Position numbers and translations under genes: made by a program
IMG/VR virus record: IMGVR_UViG_3300023184_000448
Coordinates: 1-27,007 of that record
Strand: one strand, 5' to 3'
Length of the DNA: 27,007 nucleotides
Source: a virus
Notes under the pieces: generated by a model
Seen by the model: the letters and a program-made list of their open reading frames with translations, nothing else
What the model was told of the DNA's origin: nothing
Database searches by the model: none
Shown here: positions 21,958 through 26,343 of the stretch, in pieces
How positions within the stretch are numbered: the stretch's first letter is position 1
Layout of the letters: each line of letters opens with the position of its first letter

Positions 21958-22974
21958 ATGTCAGATTACGAGAGCCTCAGATCCATTATCAATGCTATGA
22001 ACAAGAAGTATGGTGAAGGGCATATCGTAAAAGGAAGTGACGTTCGCCAAGAAATGCCACGCATTACGTCGGGCATTCTTGCTTTTGACTTGATGCTTGG
22101 CGGTGGCTGGCCTGCTAACCAGTGGAGTGAAATCATCGGAGAAGAGTCATCGGGTAAGACCGCTCTTGCGTATAAAACCATTGCGGCTAATCAAGCGCTC
22201 AACCCCGACTTCTGCGCTCTTTGGGTTGCTGCTGAAGAGTACGTCCCTGACTATGCCAAGTCTCTTGGTGTAGACCTTGACCGTTTGTGGGTTGTTGAAA
22301 CCAACATTATGGAACATGTTTACGATCTTGTTATCAAGACACTAGACAACCGTGCTGTAGACCTCATTGTTATTGACTCTCTTCCAGCGCTAGTTCCTGG
22401 TGATGAGTCAGAGAAAATGATGGAAGAGTTCACTGTTGGTTTAGGCGCACGCCTCACAGGTAAGTTCTTCCGCAAGTCTTCTAAAGCGCAAAAGCGCTCC
22501 TTGATCCATGATGAACGAGAGTGCACAGGATTAATGATTAACCAATGGCGTGAAAAGATTGGTGTGATGTACGGAGACAACCGTACGACCCCAGGTGGCA
22601 AGGCTAAGAATTTCCACTACTTCTCTCGTGTAGAGGTCAAGCGTGACGAATGGATTAAAACTAAAGATGAGACAGTAGGTCAAACTATTAAGGCTCGCAC
22701 CATTAAGAACAAGACTTACCGACCACAACAAGTGGCTGTCGTGGATTACTACTTTGCTCCAACGCAAGGTTTTGATCGTGGTGACTTTGACACTACAAAA
22801 GACGTTGTTAACATTGCTATTGCATATGACTTGATTACCCGTGCAGGCGCTTACTACTCTTATGGTGAACAGCGTTGGCAAGGTAAAGATGCAGTTCTAC
22901 AGTCCGTGCGAGAAGACACAACCCTTCGTGAAGGGATCACCAAAGCCGTCTTTGAGAAGTTTGGATTGGCGTGA
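21958..22974 (+). CDS. recA: RecA-family recombinase
   Basis: 338 residues, near the usual RecA length. Residues 36-50 (ITSGILAFDLMLGGGWP) lead into Walker A 61-68 (GEESSGKT). The glutamate-like switch region lies at AAEEYVPDYAKSLGVD. Walker B is VDLIVIDS with D140. NQWREKIGVMYGDN and TPGGKA match the L2-side region (RecA has N-Q-I-R-x-K-I-G-V-M-F-G, then P-x-G-x-A-x-x-F). GGS is used nowhere else in the window, so this is the only strand-exchange protein here. It would support recombination-dependent replication and repair. GGAG lies eight bases before the ATG. It overlaps the next gene by GTGA. Confidence 0.92.
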   Translation: MSDYESLRSIINAMNKKYGEGHIVKGSDVRQEMPRITSGILAFDLMLGGGWPANQWSEIIGEESSGKTALAYKTIAANQALNPDFCALWVAAEEYVPDYAKSLGVDLDRLWVVETNIMEHVYDLVIKTLDNRAVDLIVIDSLPALVPGDESEKMMEEFTVGLGARLTGKFFRKSSKAQKRSLIHDERECTGLMINQWREKIGVMYGDNRTTPGGKAKNFHYFSRVEVKRDEWIKTKDETVGQTIKARTIKNKTYRPQQVAVVDYYFAPTQGFDRGDFDTTKDVVNIAIAYDLITRAGAYYSYGEQRWQGKDAVLQSVREDTTLREGITKAVFEKFGLA

Positions 22975-23312
22975 TCTTTGGTGGGGACGGTACAGACCGC
23001 AAAGCGATCAACAAGAAGTCCAAGCGCCAAGAGCAACGCTCTGCCAAGTCCTACAAGGGATCACGCAACGCAGGCTCAGGATCAGGTTGGCTTCGTAAGA
23101 ATGACGTGCGCACTGCTGACATCCTCATTGAAAACAAGTTTACGACTAATGAAACTCAGATAACTCTTAAGCACAAAGATCTTGCAGAACTCATTGAGCG
23201 TGCCATTCTGGAAGATAGGCTCCCTGTATTACAGTTTGACTTACATAACCGACGCTATGTTGTTCTTACTGAAGATGACTTCCTAGAAATGAGTGGTTTA
23301 AATAATGACTGA
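22971..23312 (+). CDS. Small PD-(D/E)XK-type nuclease, resolvase-like
   Basis: 113 residues from GTG at 22971, in a GTGA overlap with recA. The N-terminal 35 residues are basic. GSGSGWLRKNDVRTADILIE then NKF fits a PD-(D/E)XK core, with D45 or D50 and E54-x-K56 as candidate metal ligands. LKHKDLAELIERAILEDRLP and RRYVVLTEDDFLEM match the helix and closing strand I associate with small phage Holliday-junction-resolvase-like proteins. I infer cutting of branched DNA made by RecA. Exact family and cut specificity are open. Confidence 0.65.
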   Translation: MIFGGDGTDRKAINKKSKRQEQRSAKSYKGSRNAGSGSGWLRKNDVRTADILIENKFTTNETQITLKHKDLAELIERAILEDRLPVLQFDLHNRRYVVLTEDDFLEMSGLNND

Positions 23313-24333
23313 AACACCATGGCACCTCCAAGAGTACAAGAAGGCGCTTACTGCTAAAGGTAAGGTTGTGCCTCTCGTACAAGGTTTGCTTATTCAACAA
23401 CGCCTTGATTCCAACCGTGACACTCTGCATCTGCACCCTAGTGAAATCTCTAAGAAAGATTGGTGCCCACGCTCATCTTGGTACACCATCAAAGGCTACA
23501 AAGGCATTGAAGACAAGTTTGGCTTTCAGCGTTTAAACGTATTTGCTGAAGGTCATTCCATCCACTCCAAGTGGCAGAATTGGATTAAAGACTTAGGTTT
23601 TCTTAAAGGTATGTGGCAGTGCTCAAATACTATTTGTAACCACAAGTGGGAAGACACCTCCCCTAAAGCCTGCCCAAGTTGCGGTATCCCGTATCCGCTA
23701 TATCGGGAAGTGCCTGTCACTAATGAATACCATCGGATCCTTGGACATGCTGACGGTATTGTAGATACAGGTAAAGAGCCGCCATTCTTGATTGAACTAA
23801 AGAGTGTGGGCGCTGGCACCGTGCGTTACGAAAGTTATGACATCTTTAAAGATGCTGACGGTAACCCCGATGAAATGTGGAAGCGCATTAGGCAACCCTT
23901 CCCATCACATGTCCGACAAGCCATGCTCTACATGTACTGCACGGGCATACACACCATGGTTTTTATCTATGAATGGAAAGCCACCCAGGACGTAAAAGAG
24001 TTTGTGGTGCATTTCCAGCAAGAGTTAGTAGATCCTATTTTGACCGCTTGCGAAACGGTTACCAAAGCGCTAGATTCATCTATCCCACCTATGCGTCCTG
24101 CATGGGTGAACGATTCAGACCACAAAACATGCAAGACATGCCCACACAAAAAGACATGCTGGAAGGAAGACAATGACAACACGAACTATTACACGACCAG
24201 AGCCATTAACACAGACAACACAGACACAAACGACAGCGCAAGCGCAGTTCAGCAAGAAGTTCACACTGCCACCACGCCCGACATCGGAGATTCCACAGTT
24301 ACCCGAGTATCTGGACGAGTTATCCGACGCTGA
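23305..24333 (+). CDS. Cas4-like PD-(D/E)XK exonuclease with Fe-S cysteines and inserted zinc ribbon
   Basis: 342 residues. C54 (DWCPRSSWY) with C276, C279 and C285 (CKTCPHKKTCW) is the split four-cysteine set that binds 4Fe-4S in Cas4/AddB-type nucleases. The nuclease core has H84 (EGHSIH), D150 (GHADG), E164-x-K166 (IELKS) and Q205-x3-Y209 (VRQAMLYMY). Between H84 and D150 is an added zinc-ribbon-like C106-x4-C111-x11-C123-x2-C126. The last 50 or so residues are low-complexity and overlap another gene. Phage Cas4-like enzymes are exonucleases for recombination; no CRISPR array was seen here. It overlaps the preceding nuclease by eight bases. Confidence 0.82.
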   Translation: MTETPWHLQEYKKALTAKGKVVPLVQGLLIQQRLDSNRDTLHLHPSEISKKDWCPRSSWYTIKGYKGIEDKFGFQRLNVFAEGHSIHSKWQNWIKDLGFLKGMWQCSNTICNHKWEDTSPKACPSCGIPYPLYREVPVTNEYHRILGHADGIVDTGKEPPFLIELKSVGAGTVRYESYDIFKDADGNPDEMWKRIRQPFPSHVRQAMLYMYCTGIHTMVFIYEWKATQDVKEFVVHFQQELVDPILTACETVTKALDSSIPPMRPAWVNDSDHKTCKTCPHKKTCWKEDNDNTNYYTTRAINTDNTDTNDSASAVQQEVHTATTPDIGDSTVTRVSGRVIRR

Positions 24334-24697
24334 ACTTATGTCCCTTTACGGGGAACTCATGGCGTGGGTTTCTTACGCTAAAGCCGAGTTAGTTACAGCA
24401 GAGATTGACGAAGAGCGCCAAGCCAACAATTGTCGCATCATTGAAGCGCAGATACTGATCGGTCAATGGGGAGACAACGCTAAAGGTGACACCGTCACAC
24501 TTGCTAAAGCACGCCGTGATGTTGACCCTCGTGTAATTGAGCAGCAAGAAGCGCACCTCAACACTCGTGCTTACCGCAAGATGGTGGACTCAGTATTTGA
24601 AAGATGTGAGCGAAGCGCTCAAGTGCTCTCCCGAGAACTGAGTAGACGTATCAGTGTGGCTCCACAAGAGCGCCGTCAACACAGGTACCTTCCGTGA
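24173..24697 (+). CDS. Hypothetical helical protein of the recombination module
   Basis: 174 residues. The start at 24173 has a strong GGAAGGAAG just upstream and lies 161 bases inside the Cas4-like gene in another frame. Residues 1-40 are Thr/Gln/Pro-rich. From about 45, long charged helices dominate (LSDAELMSLYGELMAWVSYA, then EIDEERQANNCRIIEAQILI, and VFERCERSAQVLSRELSRR), so it may be a coiled-coil oligomer. Location among recA, nuclease and resolvase genes suggests a recombination mediator or nuclease partner, but I see no defining motif. Confidence 0.65.
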   Translation: MTTRTITRPEPLTQTTQTQTTAQAQFSKKFTLPPRPTSEIPQLPEYLDELSDAELMSLYGELMAWVSYAKAELVTAEIDEERQANNCRIIEAQILIGQWGDNAKGDTVTLAKARRDVDPRVIEQQEAHLNTRAYRKMVDSVFERCERSAQVLSRELSRRISVAPQERRQHRYLP

Positions 24698-25479
24698 CAA
24701 TCTCACTTTTGCGGAATCAGGCTCTTGGGTACATCCCCCCAACACCCCTGACTCCAGTGTTATCGGATTCGGTTACATCCACAACTCACGAACTTCTTTT
24801 CAGCGTTGCAAATTTCCTTGGGCATCCTGTTGGGTATCTGCAAGAGCAACAAGGAAACCTTGTTCAAAACATTCTGCCAAACCCAAAGACAGAGTATTCA
24901 CAGATATCCACATCCTCTAAAGTCAACTTAGATTTACACACCGAGTCATGTTTCCATCCATACCTTCCAGATTACGTTTTACTTTTGTGTTTGCGAGGTG
25001 ACCCTGCTGCTGCAACTACTTATGCCGACCTTGATGACATCCTTCCTGACTTAAGCGACAAGAGCATAGAGATACTTAAACAACCCTGGTTTCGTACTTC
25101 TGTTGATGAAAGTTTTAGAACTAACGGAGAGCCTGATCAACCAAGAGACCTTCCTGTTCTATACGAACTACCAGATGGTACGCACCGAATAAAGTATGAC
25201 AAAGCCGTCATGGTAGGTCTTTGGAAAGACGCCGTATCGGCTTTAGAAGAATTAAACGAAGTTATTGAGAAGCACACCTCAACAGTTATTCTTCAAACAG
25301 GAGACTTACTTGTTATTGATAACGCCACAACGGTGCATGGTCGCAGACCTTTTCAAGCCCGCTATGACGGTACAGACCGTTGGTTACAACGTGTCCTCGT
25401 ACGTAAGAGTGTTAAAGATATGCCTCACAAACATTGCACTAAAACAGGTTACTTAATCATTACTAAATACACGGAGTAA
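24694..25479 (+). CDS. Fe(II)/2-oxoglutarate-dependent oxygenase, clavaminate synthase/VioC/AsnO-like
   Basis: 261 residues from GTG at 24694 (GTGA overlap). Iron facial triad: H82 and E84 in LHTES, then H215 in NATTVHGRR. R229 lies 14 residues after H215 (YDGTDRWLQRVLVRK), the place of the 2-oxoglutarate-binding Arg in VioC-type enzymes (recalled). R233 corresponds to an Arg that contacts the substrate carboxylate there. H-P-Y-L-P-D-Y, LLLCLRGDP and the TGDLLVIDN strand also match the family. Relatives hydroxylate free Arg, Asn or a clavam precursor. At 261 residues it is shorter than the usual 320-350, mainly at the N-terminus. Substrate is unknown: a free amino acid, a modified nucleotide or a protein residue are all possible. 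Such a gene inside a recombination operon is unusual. Confidence 0.85.
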   Translation: MTISLLRNQALGYIPPTPLTPVLSDSVTSTTHELLFSVANFLGHPVGYLQEQQGNLVQNILPNPKTEYSQISTSSKVNLDLHTESCFHPYLPDYVLLLCLRGDPAAATTYADLDDILPDLSDKSIEILKQPWFRTSVDESFRTNGEPDQPRDLPVLYELPDGTHRIKYDKAVMVGLWKDAVSALEELNEVIEKHTSTVILQTGDLLVIDNATTVHGRRPFQARYDGTDRWLQRVLVRKSVKDMPHKHCTKTGYLIITKYTE

Positions 25480-25481
25480 GT

Positions 25482-25658
25482 ATGTCTAAAGATGAAATGC
25501 CGTTAAGTGAAACTGTCCGCCTCATGGCTGACGTCATCAGAGAAGGAAAAGGCAGAGTTCAAGTTAACTTTGAGCCATCTTTTCTTTATGAAATTGCTAA
25601 TGTCTTGTCACACTACGAAGATTGGGAATGGGAGTTTGGTAATGGGCAACAAGAATAA
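25482..25658 (+). CDS. Small hypothetical acidic protein
   Basis: 58 residues, ATG at 25482 with GGAG five bases upstream. It is a single amphipathic region (LSETVRLMADVIREGKGRVQ, then NFEPSFLYEIANVLSHYEDW) with an acidic, Trp-containing end. It overlaps the next gene by 17 bases and starts two bases after the oxygenase stop. No family recognised; junctions and ribosome binding site support translation. Confidence 0.6.
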   Translation: MSKDEMPLSETVRLMADVIREGKGRVQVNFEPSFLYEIANVLSHYEDWEWEFGNGQQE

Positions 25659-26007
25659 AGCCAAAGGCACTTCTTATGAGGTCTTGGTTCGTGACCACCT
25701 CATTGCTAACGGCTTCCCTAATACGCACAGGACAGCCCTTGCAGGCGGATTAGACTCTGGAGACTTGCACGGTATACAACGACCAGACACTCAACGCAAA
25801 GTCTGTGTGCAATGTAAGAATGACAAGTCCTTCAATATCAGTGGATGGCTTAATGACACTGTAGAGCAAGCAAAGCGTTTGAATGACGCTGTTCCTGCAC
25901 TGGTTGTGAAGAGGAAAGGTAAGGGGGAAAAAGCACTGGGTGAATCGTATGTTGTGATGCGCTTAGATGACCTGATTGAACTCTTAAAGGAAGCAAATTA
26001 CTCCTAA
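25642..26007 (+). CDS. Hjc-like PD-(D/E)XK nuclease (Holliday junction resolvase family)
   Basis: 121 residues from the ATG at 25642, with GGGAG eight bases before; longer in-frame starts upstream lie inside other genes. E13 (GTSYEVLVRDHLIANGF), D41 (SGDLHG) and Q57-x-K59 (CVQCKN) form the core; the usual E of E-x-K is Q here. The Lys-rich start (GNKNKAKGT), D-x-G-D, then the LNDAVPALVVKRKGKG strand fit Hjc-like and VRR-type resolvases. It probably cuts four-way junctions. Together with the 22971 protein, two such small nucleases lie in one operon. The stop codon is within a hairpin that covers the next ribosome binding site. Confidence 0.72.
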   Translation: MGNKNKAKGTSYEVLVRDHLIANGFPNTHRTALAGGLDSGDLHGIQRPDTQRKVCVQCKNDKSFNISGWLNDTVEQAKRLNDAVPALVVKRKGKGEKALGESYVVMRLDDLIELLKEANYS

Positions 26008-26052: not shown

Positions 26053-26343
26053 ATGTCACAAGAACTACACACACCTATTGACGATATCTTAAAAGTCTCA
26101 GGAAGTAGTAACCCACAAAGTGTTGGTTCTATTCTTGCTCGTGCGGTTAACGCAGGGCAAGCACCCAAGATGCGTGCTATCGGCGCCAGTGCTGTCAATC
26201 AAGCAGCCAAAGCAGCAGCAATCGCCCGAGGCTTTGTTGCCCCACGTGGTATTGATCTCACTTATATTATCGGCTTTGATGATATTATTGGAGACAACGG
26301 AGAAGCCATCTCGGCTATCTCATTTAAACCAGTCGTGAGGTAG
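26053..26343 (+). CDS. spoVS: SpoVS-family protein
   Basis: 96 residues. From residue 12 the sequence follows stage V sporulation protein S almost end to end: DILKVSGSSNPQSVGSILA, then MRAIGASAVNQAAKAAAIAR, GFVAPRGIDLTYI and an acidic turn before ISFKPVV. The A-I-G-A-x-A-V/L-N-Q-A-x-K-A-x-A-I-A-R-G-F core (42-61) is the family signature. SpoVS is a small alpha/beta protein with an Alba-like fold; in Bacillus it affects sporulation by an unclear route. Here it may be a nucleic-acid-binding regulator of phage or host. AGGAG lies seven bases before the ATG, inside the hairpin stem. Confidence 0.9.
   Translation: MSQELHTPIDDILKVSGSSNPQSVGSILARAVNAGQAPKMRAIGASAVNQAAKAAAIARGFVAPRGIDLTYIIGFDDIIGDNGEAISAISFKPVVR

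Follow-up and report, generated by a model that had tools for sequence, protein, structure and literature searches.

A 27,007-nucleotide stretch of viral DNA (positions 1 to 27,007 of IMG/VR virus record IMGVR_UViG_3300023184_000448; hereafter the window) carries at 24694..25479 a gene for a compact clavaminate synthase-like (CSL) Fe(II)/2-oxoglutarate (2OG) oxygenase of 261 amino acids (aa) with a GTG start, recognised from its open reading frame (ORF), family models, a search of PDB sequences and a structure model; this and all other window features given below lie on the plus strand. It is a shortened variant, found mainly in phages, of the known iron enzymes with which bacteria hydroxylate free amino acids such as lysine or arginine. 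On balance it is probably the product of a phage auxiliary metabolic gene and hydroxylates a free alpha-amino acid at C3, the beta carbon; the substrate would most likely be basic, with L-lysine the first candidate and ornithine- or arginine-like amino acids the next. The parts of this reading differ in strength. Membership of the CSL family is practically certain; a free alpha-amino acid as substrate is very likely; a basic side chain would be likely and attack at C3 probable, and lysine itself is a tentative, somewhat doubtful choice. Such an enzyme would add free-amino-acid C–H hydroxylation to the chemistry that phages may encode, and it points to an unstudied way by which phages may change host amino-acid or surface chemistry.

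Family placement and predicted structure

Sequence models place the protein among the CSL enzymes without assigning it to any one of them. Its Pfam match is TauD (66 bits, E 7e-18), and among NCBIfam models the L-enduracididine beta-hydroxylase GntD scores highest (NF041363; 186.1 bits, E 1e-54), with further matches to VioC (TIGR03946; 150.2 bits, E 7e-44) and the clavaminate synthase (CAS) Cs1 (NF043003; 135.4 bits, E 3e-39). All three scores lie well under the respective equivalog cut-offs of 345, 418.6 and 450 bits, so that the oxygenase belongs in the CSL group yet cannot be filed as GntD, VioC or Cs1, and orthology to VioC, CAS or GntD was rejected. A single-sequence search of the PDB returned the asparagine oxygenase AsnO first (E 2e-36). 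When 41 sequences from the viral clade described below were combined into a profile, KDO1, an L-lysine 3-hydroxylase (PDB 6f2a), came out highest of all PDB sequences instead, with 169.6 bits against 159.8 for AsnO, 155.9 for OrfP, 148 for VioC, 138 for CS1 and 56.8 for KDO5.

An AlphaFold2 model built on 71 aligned rows, cellular relatives included, reached a predicted local distance difference test score (pLDDT) of 95.4 and a predicted template modelling score (pTM) of 0.92; with the 41 viral-clade rows alone, residues 66-78 had pLDDT <50, which the addition of the cellular relatives cured. In VIA-align the model superposes on KDO1 with bound lysine at Z 31.9 and a root mean square deviation of 1.9 over 256 residues, its top structural match, and on AsnO, VioC and CAS at Z 31.5, 31.2 and 29.4. 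The CSL entries span Z 25-32, and there is then a clear step down to the best non-CSL protein among those listed, gamma-butyrobetaine hydroxylase (Z 20.1); the CSL fold therefore extends across the whole catalytic domain. The original prediction, which had put the gene in the CAS/VioC/AsnO group and proposed a structural comparison with these enzymes, is thus borne out by the family models and the PDB search as well as by the fold and the mapped residues, the model matching VioC, AsnO, CAS and KDO1 far above non-CSL folds. Structure alone makes no choice among KDO1, AsnO and VioC, because Z values within 1 of each other are tied.

The main departure from the characterised enzymes is at the N-terminus. 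Residue 1 of the model aligns with residue 96 of KDO1, 84 of VioC, 73 of AsnO and 58 of CAS, and the N-terminal ~57-95 residues present in all characterised members (95 in KDO1, 72 in AsnO) are absent from the window protein and from the viral clade; none of the characterised CSL enzymes that we found is as short. Since the N-terminus lies outside the published active-site definition (Bastard et al., PMC6224419), membership by catalytic domain stands; since the region is absent, we term the protein a CSL variant. The ORF is intact, running from the GTG at 24694 to a TAA at 25477-25479, and in two close relatives, L001 and L004, the codon aligned with this start is ATG. A split or truncated gene was ruled out, as the ORF upstream is a separate conserved 174-aa protein that does not encode the absent N-terminus, and the short form is common to the whole viral clade. 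The gene is under purifying selection, given a ratio of non-synonymous to synonymous substitution rates (dN/dS) of ~0.11-0.13 against four close viral relatives.

Active-site residues and the candidate substrate

Bastard et al. define numbered pocket positions (logo P numbers) for CSL enzymes (PMC6224419), onto which we mapped the window residues by alignment; placing P16 two residues past D169 is our own reading. In addition to homology with characterised CSL enzymes, the protein has the 2-His-1-Glu triad, with H82 (24937-24939) and E84 (24943-24945) in the H-x-E motif at P8-P9 (24937..24945) and H215 at P17 (25336..25338), and the two C-terminal arginines (25378..25392), of which R229 (25378-25380; P18, KDO1 R328) maps to the 2OG carboxylate ligand and R233 (25390-25392; P19, KDO1 R332) to the substrate carboxylate ligand. 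These five residues, found in the 261-aa ORF at the positions originally given for them, are invariant in 45/45 non-redundant viral, 6/6 short bacterial and 39/39 acidimicrobial long-form rows. The triad aligns with that of solved CSL structures, which bears only indirectly on the iron-binding geometry that the original prediction had named as a refuting check.

The earlier suggestion that a carboxylate-binding arginine implies a free amino-acid substrate is well supported, because R233 aligns with the CSL arginine that binds the substrate carboxylate (PMC6224419). Every other published substrate-contact position is occupied as well: E51 (24844..24846; P2, AsnO E125) at the alpha-amino contact, where the large majority of CSL groups have Gln or Glu; S72 (24907..24909; P6, KDO1 S168, AsnO N146) at the substrate carboxylate, by alignment to the same study; and the pair formed by D138, in the mobile lid motif D138-E139-S140 (25105..25113; P12-P14, KDO1 D234-E235-S236), and D169 (25198..25200; P15, KDO1 D268, AsnO D241), the second acid of the basic-side-chain pocket. 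T108 matches the 2OG-binding Thr204 of KDO1. Across the 45 viral rows E51, Q52, S72, T108, D138, S140, D169, the triad and the arginine pair do not vary (D169 is constant in 71 rows), whereas E139 and A171 do. An aspartate at the dimer interface, D93 in the window protein, is retained in 33/45 viral rows.

Some of the published positions bear on substrate and regiochemistry: an acid pair at P12 and P15 is the mark of CSL enzymes whose substrates have positively charged side chains, arginine at P3 marks C4 hydroxylases, P3 being tied to C4 regioselectivity, and an extra P16 aspartate in VioC grips the guanidinium group (PMC6224419). The acid pair is present and invariant in the phage protein (D138, D169), P3 is Q52 in 45/45 viral rows rather than the arginine of KDO5-type lysine 4-hydroxylases, and P16 is A171 rather than the aspartate of VioC. 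With the acid pair present and both the P3 arginine and the P16 aspartate absent, the pocket would, by inference, favour an amino acid like lysine or ornithine and its oxidation at C3. We envisage that Fe(II) would be bound by H82, E84 and H215, and 2OG by R229 and T108; that R233 and S72 would hold the substrate carboxylate and E51 its amino group; and that D169 and the lid residue D138 would flank the side-chain cation. Oxygen would then split 2OG into succinate and CO2, leaving a ferryl species to oxidise the beta carbon.

KDO1 shares with the phage protein the triad, the 2OG ligands and the residues at P2, P6 and P12-P15, that is, the Glu, the Ser, the D-E-S lid and the second Asp, but differs from it at P3 and P16. 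AsnO (PDB 2og5-2og7) is 34% identical and also has Glu at P2, but has Pro at lid position P12 in place of D138 and a side-chain pocket without the acid pair. In the arginine hydroxylases and desaturase VioC, CmnC, OrfP and NapI (best Z ~30-31), both pocket positions are Asp in the aligned rows, but the lid is longer and P2 is Gln or Leu. The clavaminate synthases CS1 and CS3 share the fold but have Leu at P2 for proclavaminate, and the window shows no recognisable gene of a clavam pathway.

Viral and cellular relatives

Scanning IMG/VR with a profile built from nine viral sequences, we confirmed relatives at 297 loci, in several genomic contexts, and kept the best 80; the gene does recur in related phage contigs, a check proposed along with the original prediction. 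The inspected viral relatives form a compact clade (median 261 aa) with the same N-terminal absence. In contrast to these hundreds of viral loci, the branch is nearly absent from catalogued phages: a relative was found in 1/50,697, the Dishui Lake phage DSL-LC01, whose 272-aa 'TauD/TfdA family dioxygenase' (WJZ48424.1) is 42% identical over 99% of the query. The paper describing DSL-LC01 predicts an Actinomycetia host, and its text does not mention TauD or dioxygenase. The best matches in BFVD were TauD- or PhyH-type proteins at <=15% identity, and no CSL-like viral model appeared among the top matches, which does not exclude one; together with the single catalogued relative, this agrees with the earlier remark that phage 2OG oxygenases mostly belong to other subfamilies. 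Among open-licence papers we found nothing relevant on phage CSL enzymes or on free hydroxylysine in phages.

A maximum-likelihood tree from a quick search unites the viral rows with six short cellular proteins (SH-aLRT 98). This group, together with the fragmentary cellular row L077, is sister to a long-form group whose median length is 320 aa and which stems mostly from metagenome bins of Acidimicrobiia and related Actinomycetota; support for the joint group is also 98. A long branch leads to the viral group. The six short-form cellular relatives (L021, L022, L024, L029, L031, L042) come from actinobacterial metagenome bins. The phages that carry the oxygenase are uncultured and probably actinobacterial. 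The WhiB protein of a 97-kb relative (G003) suits such a host.

The gene neighbourhoods of the long-form sister enzymes provide the strongest independent support for beta-hydroxylation. By tblastn, a PF01212 GntG/threonine-aldolase-like gene occurs in 21/39 long-form loci (e.g. L051:6863-7957), almost always a short way downstream and in the same orientation, and an RpiR-type regulator, mostly divergent, lies within 3 kb in 30/39. The PF01212 enzymes are pyridoxal phosphate-dependent aldolases that cleave beta-hydroxy-alpha-amino acids, so their frequent proximity suggests that the neighbouring oxygenase makes such a compound. GntG itself has been named as a retro-aldol enzyme (PMC10367076), and the pairing with a GntG-like aldolase is a further likeness to GntD, although the aldolase-like gene of the long-form loci scores under the GntG-family cut-off.

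Several observations weigh against the assignment as a beta-hydroxylase of a basic amino acid. Identity to KDO1 is only 29%, and in the tree KDO1 lies outside the joint group on a long, uncertain branch. Q52 at P3 and A171 at P16 differ from the Gly and Asp of KDO1, and the phages themselves have T, S, F, W or A at P16, so that substrates may differ between viral members. Finally, no PF01212 match was found in 19 phage records, which may be fragments; this argues against a phage-borne retro-aldolase, and the phage thus seemingly does not bring the second step of the sister operon.

Genomic contexts and possible uses in infection

We classified 88 viral neighbourhoods, the window included, as contig counts in which near-copies are included. 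A methyltransferase and glycosyltransferase cassette, mostly behind endolysin genes, accounts for 32/88, proximity to a B12-type ribonucleotide reductase or a shared flank with it for 23/88, and a recombination operon like that of the window for 21/88; the rest are endolysin only (7/88), of another type (4/88) or unassigned (1/88). The likeliest use of the enzyme would be to produce the hydroxylated amino acid in infected cells, where it might serve as a building block for surface or virion glycans or might change the host amino-acid pool. Both are serious options, the data favour neither, and each taken alone is rather unlikely.

In the first case, neighbouring glycosyltransferases and methyltransferases would attach the hydroxylated amino acid, or a small zwitterion related to it, to a surface or virion glycan as a dedicated building block. 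The 32 cassette loci fit this: in them the gene precedes methyltransferases, GT2, GT17 and other glycosyltransferases, often together with a very large protein (L109-L167; e.g. L148:11442-12206 and L154:10136-13969, with oxygenase, methyltransferases, GT2, GT17 and a >1000-aa protein), and the cassette looks like a glycan-decoration module. The one large protein scanned, that of L154, has a legume-type lectin domain. The DSL-LC01 oxygenase, whose neighbourhood differs from that of the window, adjoins a methyltransferase and a mannosyltransferase, and the six short-form cellular relatives adjoin, convergently, a 3-deoxy-manno-octulosonate synthesis cluster (KdsA, KdsD, KdsB-like) and a GT8-like gene; to our knowledge such sugar genes are unusual in Actinomycetota. 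The window gene, however, has no such cassette beside it, the recombination-operon and ribonucleotide-reductase loci likewise lie elsewhere, and no amino acid-sugar ligase was identified. An extended form of the idea, which we consider improbable, is that phages of freshwater actinobacteria own an old, compact beta-hydroxylase branch whose hydroxylated basic amino acid is a new building block, for example for decoration of virion or host-envelope glycans. We know of no virus with this chemistry.

In the second case, a hydroxylated analogue would block a host synthetase, transport or regulation, or would feed glycine production through host aldolases. The RpiR and aldolase neighbourhood of the sister cellular enzymes has a catabolic look, and in the window's phage group the gene is stand-alone cargo, both of which suit an effect on host pools; against it, no paper joining hydroxylysine, bacteriophage and free lysine was found in the open-licence literature. 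Should the product be placed on a glycan or interfere with a process of the host, this would amount to a new phage strategy.

The location of the gene in the window might suggest a quite different role. Upstream lie a RecA/UvsX-like recombinase (21958..22974; domain and profile matches), a Holliday-junction-resolvase-like ORF (22971..23312; phrog_2002), a Cas4/RecE-type exonuclease (23305..24333; profile match) and the conserved 174-aa ORF of unknown function (24173..24697), whose TGA overlaps the oxygenase GTG at 24694-24697. Downstream follow a 58-aa ORF read by eye (25482..25658), a PDDEXK/RusA-like resolvase (25642..26007; profile matches) that closes a variable cargo slot, and a SpoVS-like protein (26053..26343; profile match) at the downstream boundary of the conserved operon. 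The order recA, resolvase, exonuclease, 174-aa ORF, slot, resolvase, SpoVS is conserved in the window's phage group, and the slot itself (window 24697-25642; loci L175-L251) holds the oxygenase in 20 loci, lacks it in 29 and is unclassified by our length rule in 31; in other phages it contains unrelated small ORFs, one cytidylyltransferase-like and one HNH-like by eye. The oxygenase is thus optional cargo in a variable slot of a recombination operon. The original prediction had placed it firmly in the operon, which is correct for its position, given the overlapping codons and the recA, exonuclease and resolvase neighbours, and does not carry over to its function, since 29 related operons do without it; with the slot variable, the overlap gives no functional tie to recombination, and a recombination-specific role was rejected as the default.

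Modification of DNA, nucleotides or a protein side chain within the recombination or replication module, which the setting inside this operon, and near ribonucleotide reductase in other phages, could be taken to favour, is for the same reason very unlikely. The alpha-amino and alpha-carboxylate contacts are both invariant, as suits a free amino acid but neither a nucleotide nor a residue within a protein; amino acids and their derivatives are the substrates of the functionally characterised CSL enzymes (PMC6224419), and nothing was found in support of the unusual base or protein that had been raised earlier as a substrate. A decaying passenger, that is, a transferred host gene without phage function, would account for the patchy presence across related operons, but purifying selection and an active site fully conserved throughout a diverse viral clade make it the most improbable reading.

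Beta-hydroxylation of a free, basic amino acid therefore remains our preferred reading, and the contact residues allow a specific and cheap test of both the amino acid and the carbon attacked. The compact form may also serve biocatalysis.

Further observations in the window and related loci

Neither the window nor the 97-kb relative yielded any tRNA genes. By eye, the ends of the latter join up as in a complete circular map, and it is rich in iron- and 2OG-linked genes: it encodes a PhyH-type oxygenase (L172:931-1719, minus strand), a second 2OG-oxygenase-like protein below the cut-off (L172:19176-19700), a ferritin-like protein (L174:12814-13260, minus strand) and the WhiB protein (L171:456-872), as well as a glycosyltransferase and a methyltransferase. 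A phage 4Fe-4S ferredoxin lies near the oxygenase at L122:2842-3087 (minus strand) and in 20 other loci, mostly in the ribonucleotide-reductase context.

Some cellular CSL homologues lie in open frames of ~590 aa or longer (L063, L065-L067, L070, L071, L073, L076, L080), possibly fused to an N-terminal domain, although high guanine-plus-cytosine content may inflate such frames. Most of the related loci long enough to show it keep a SpoVS-family protein downstream of the recombination operon.
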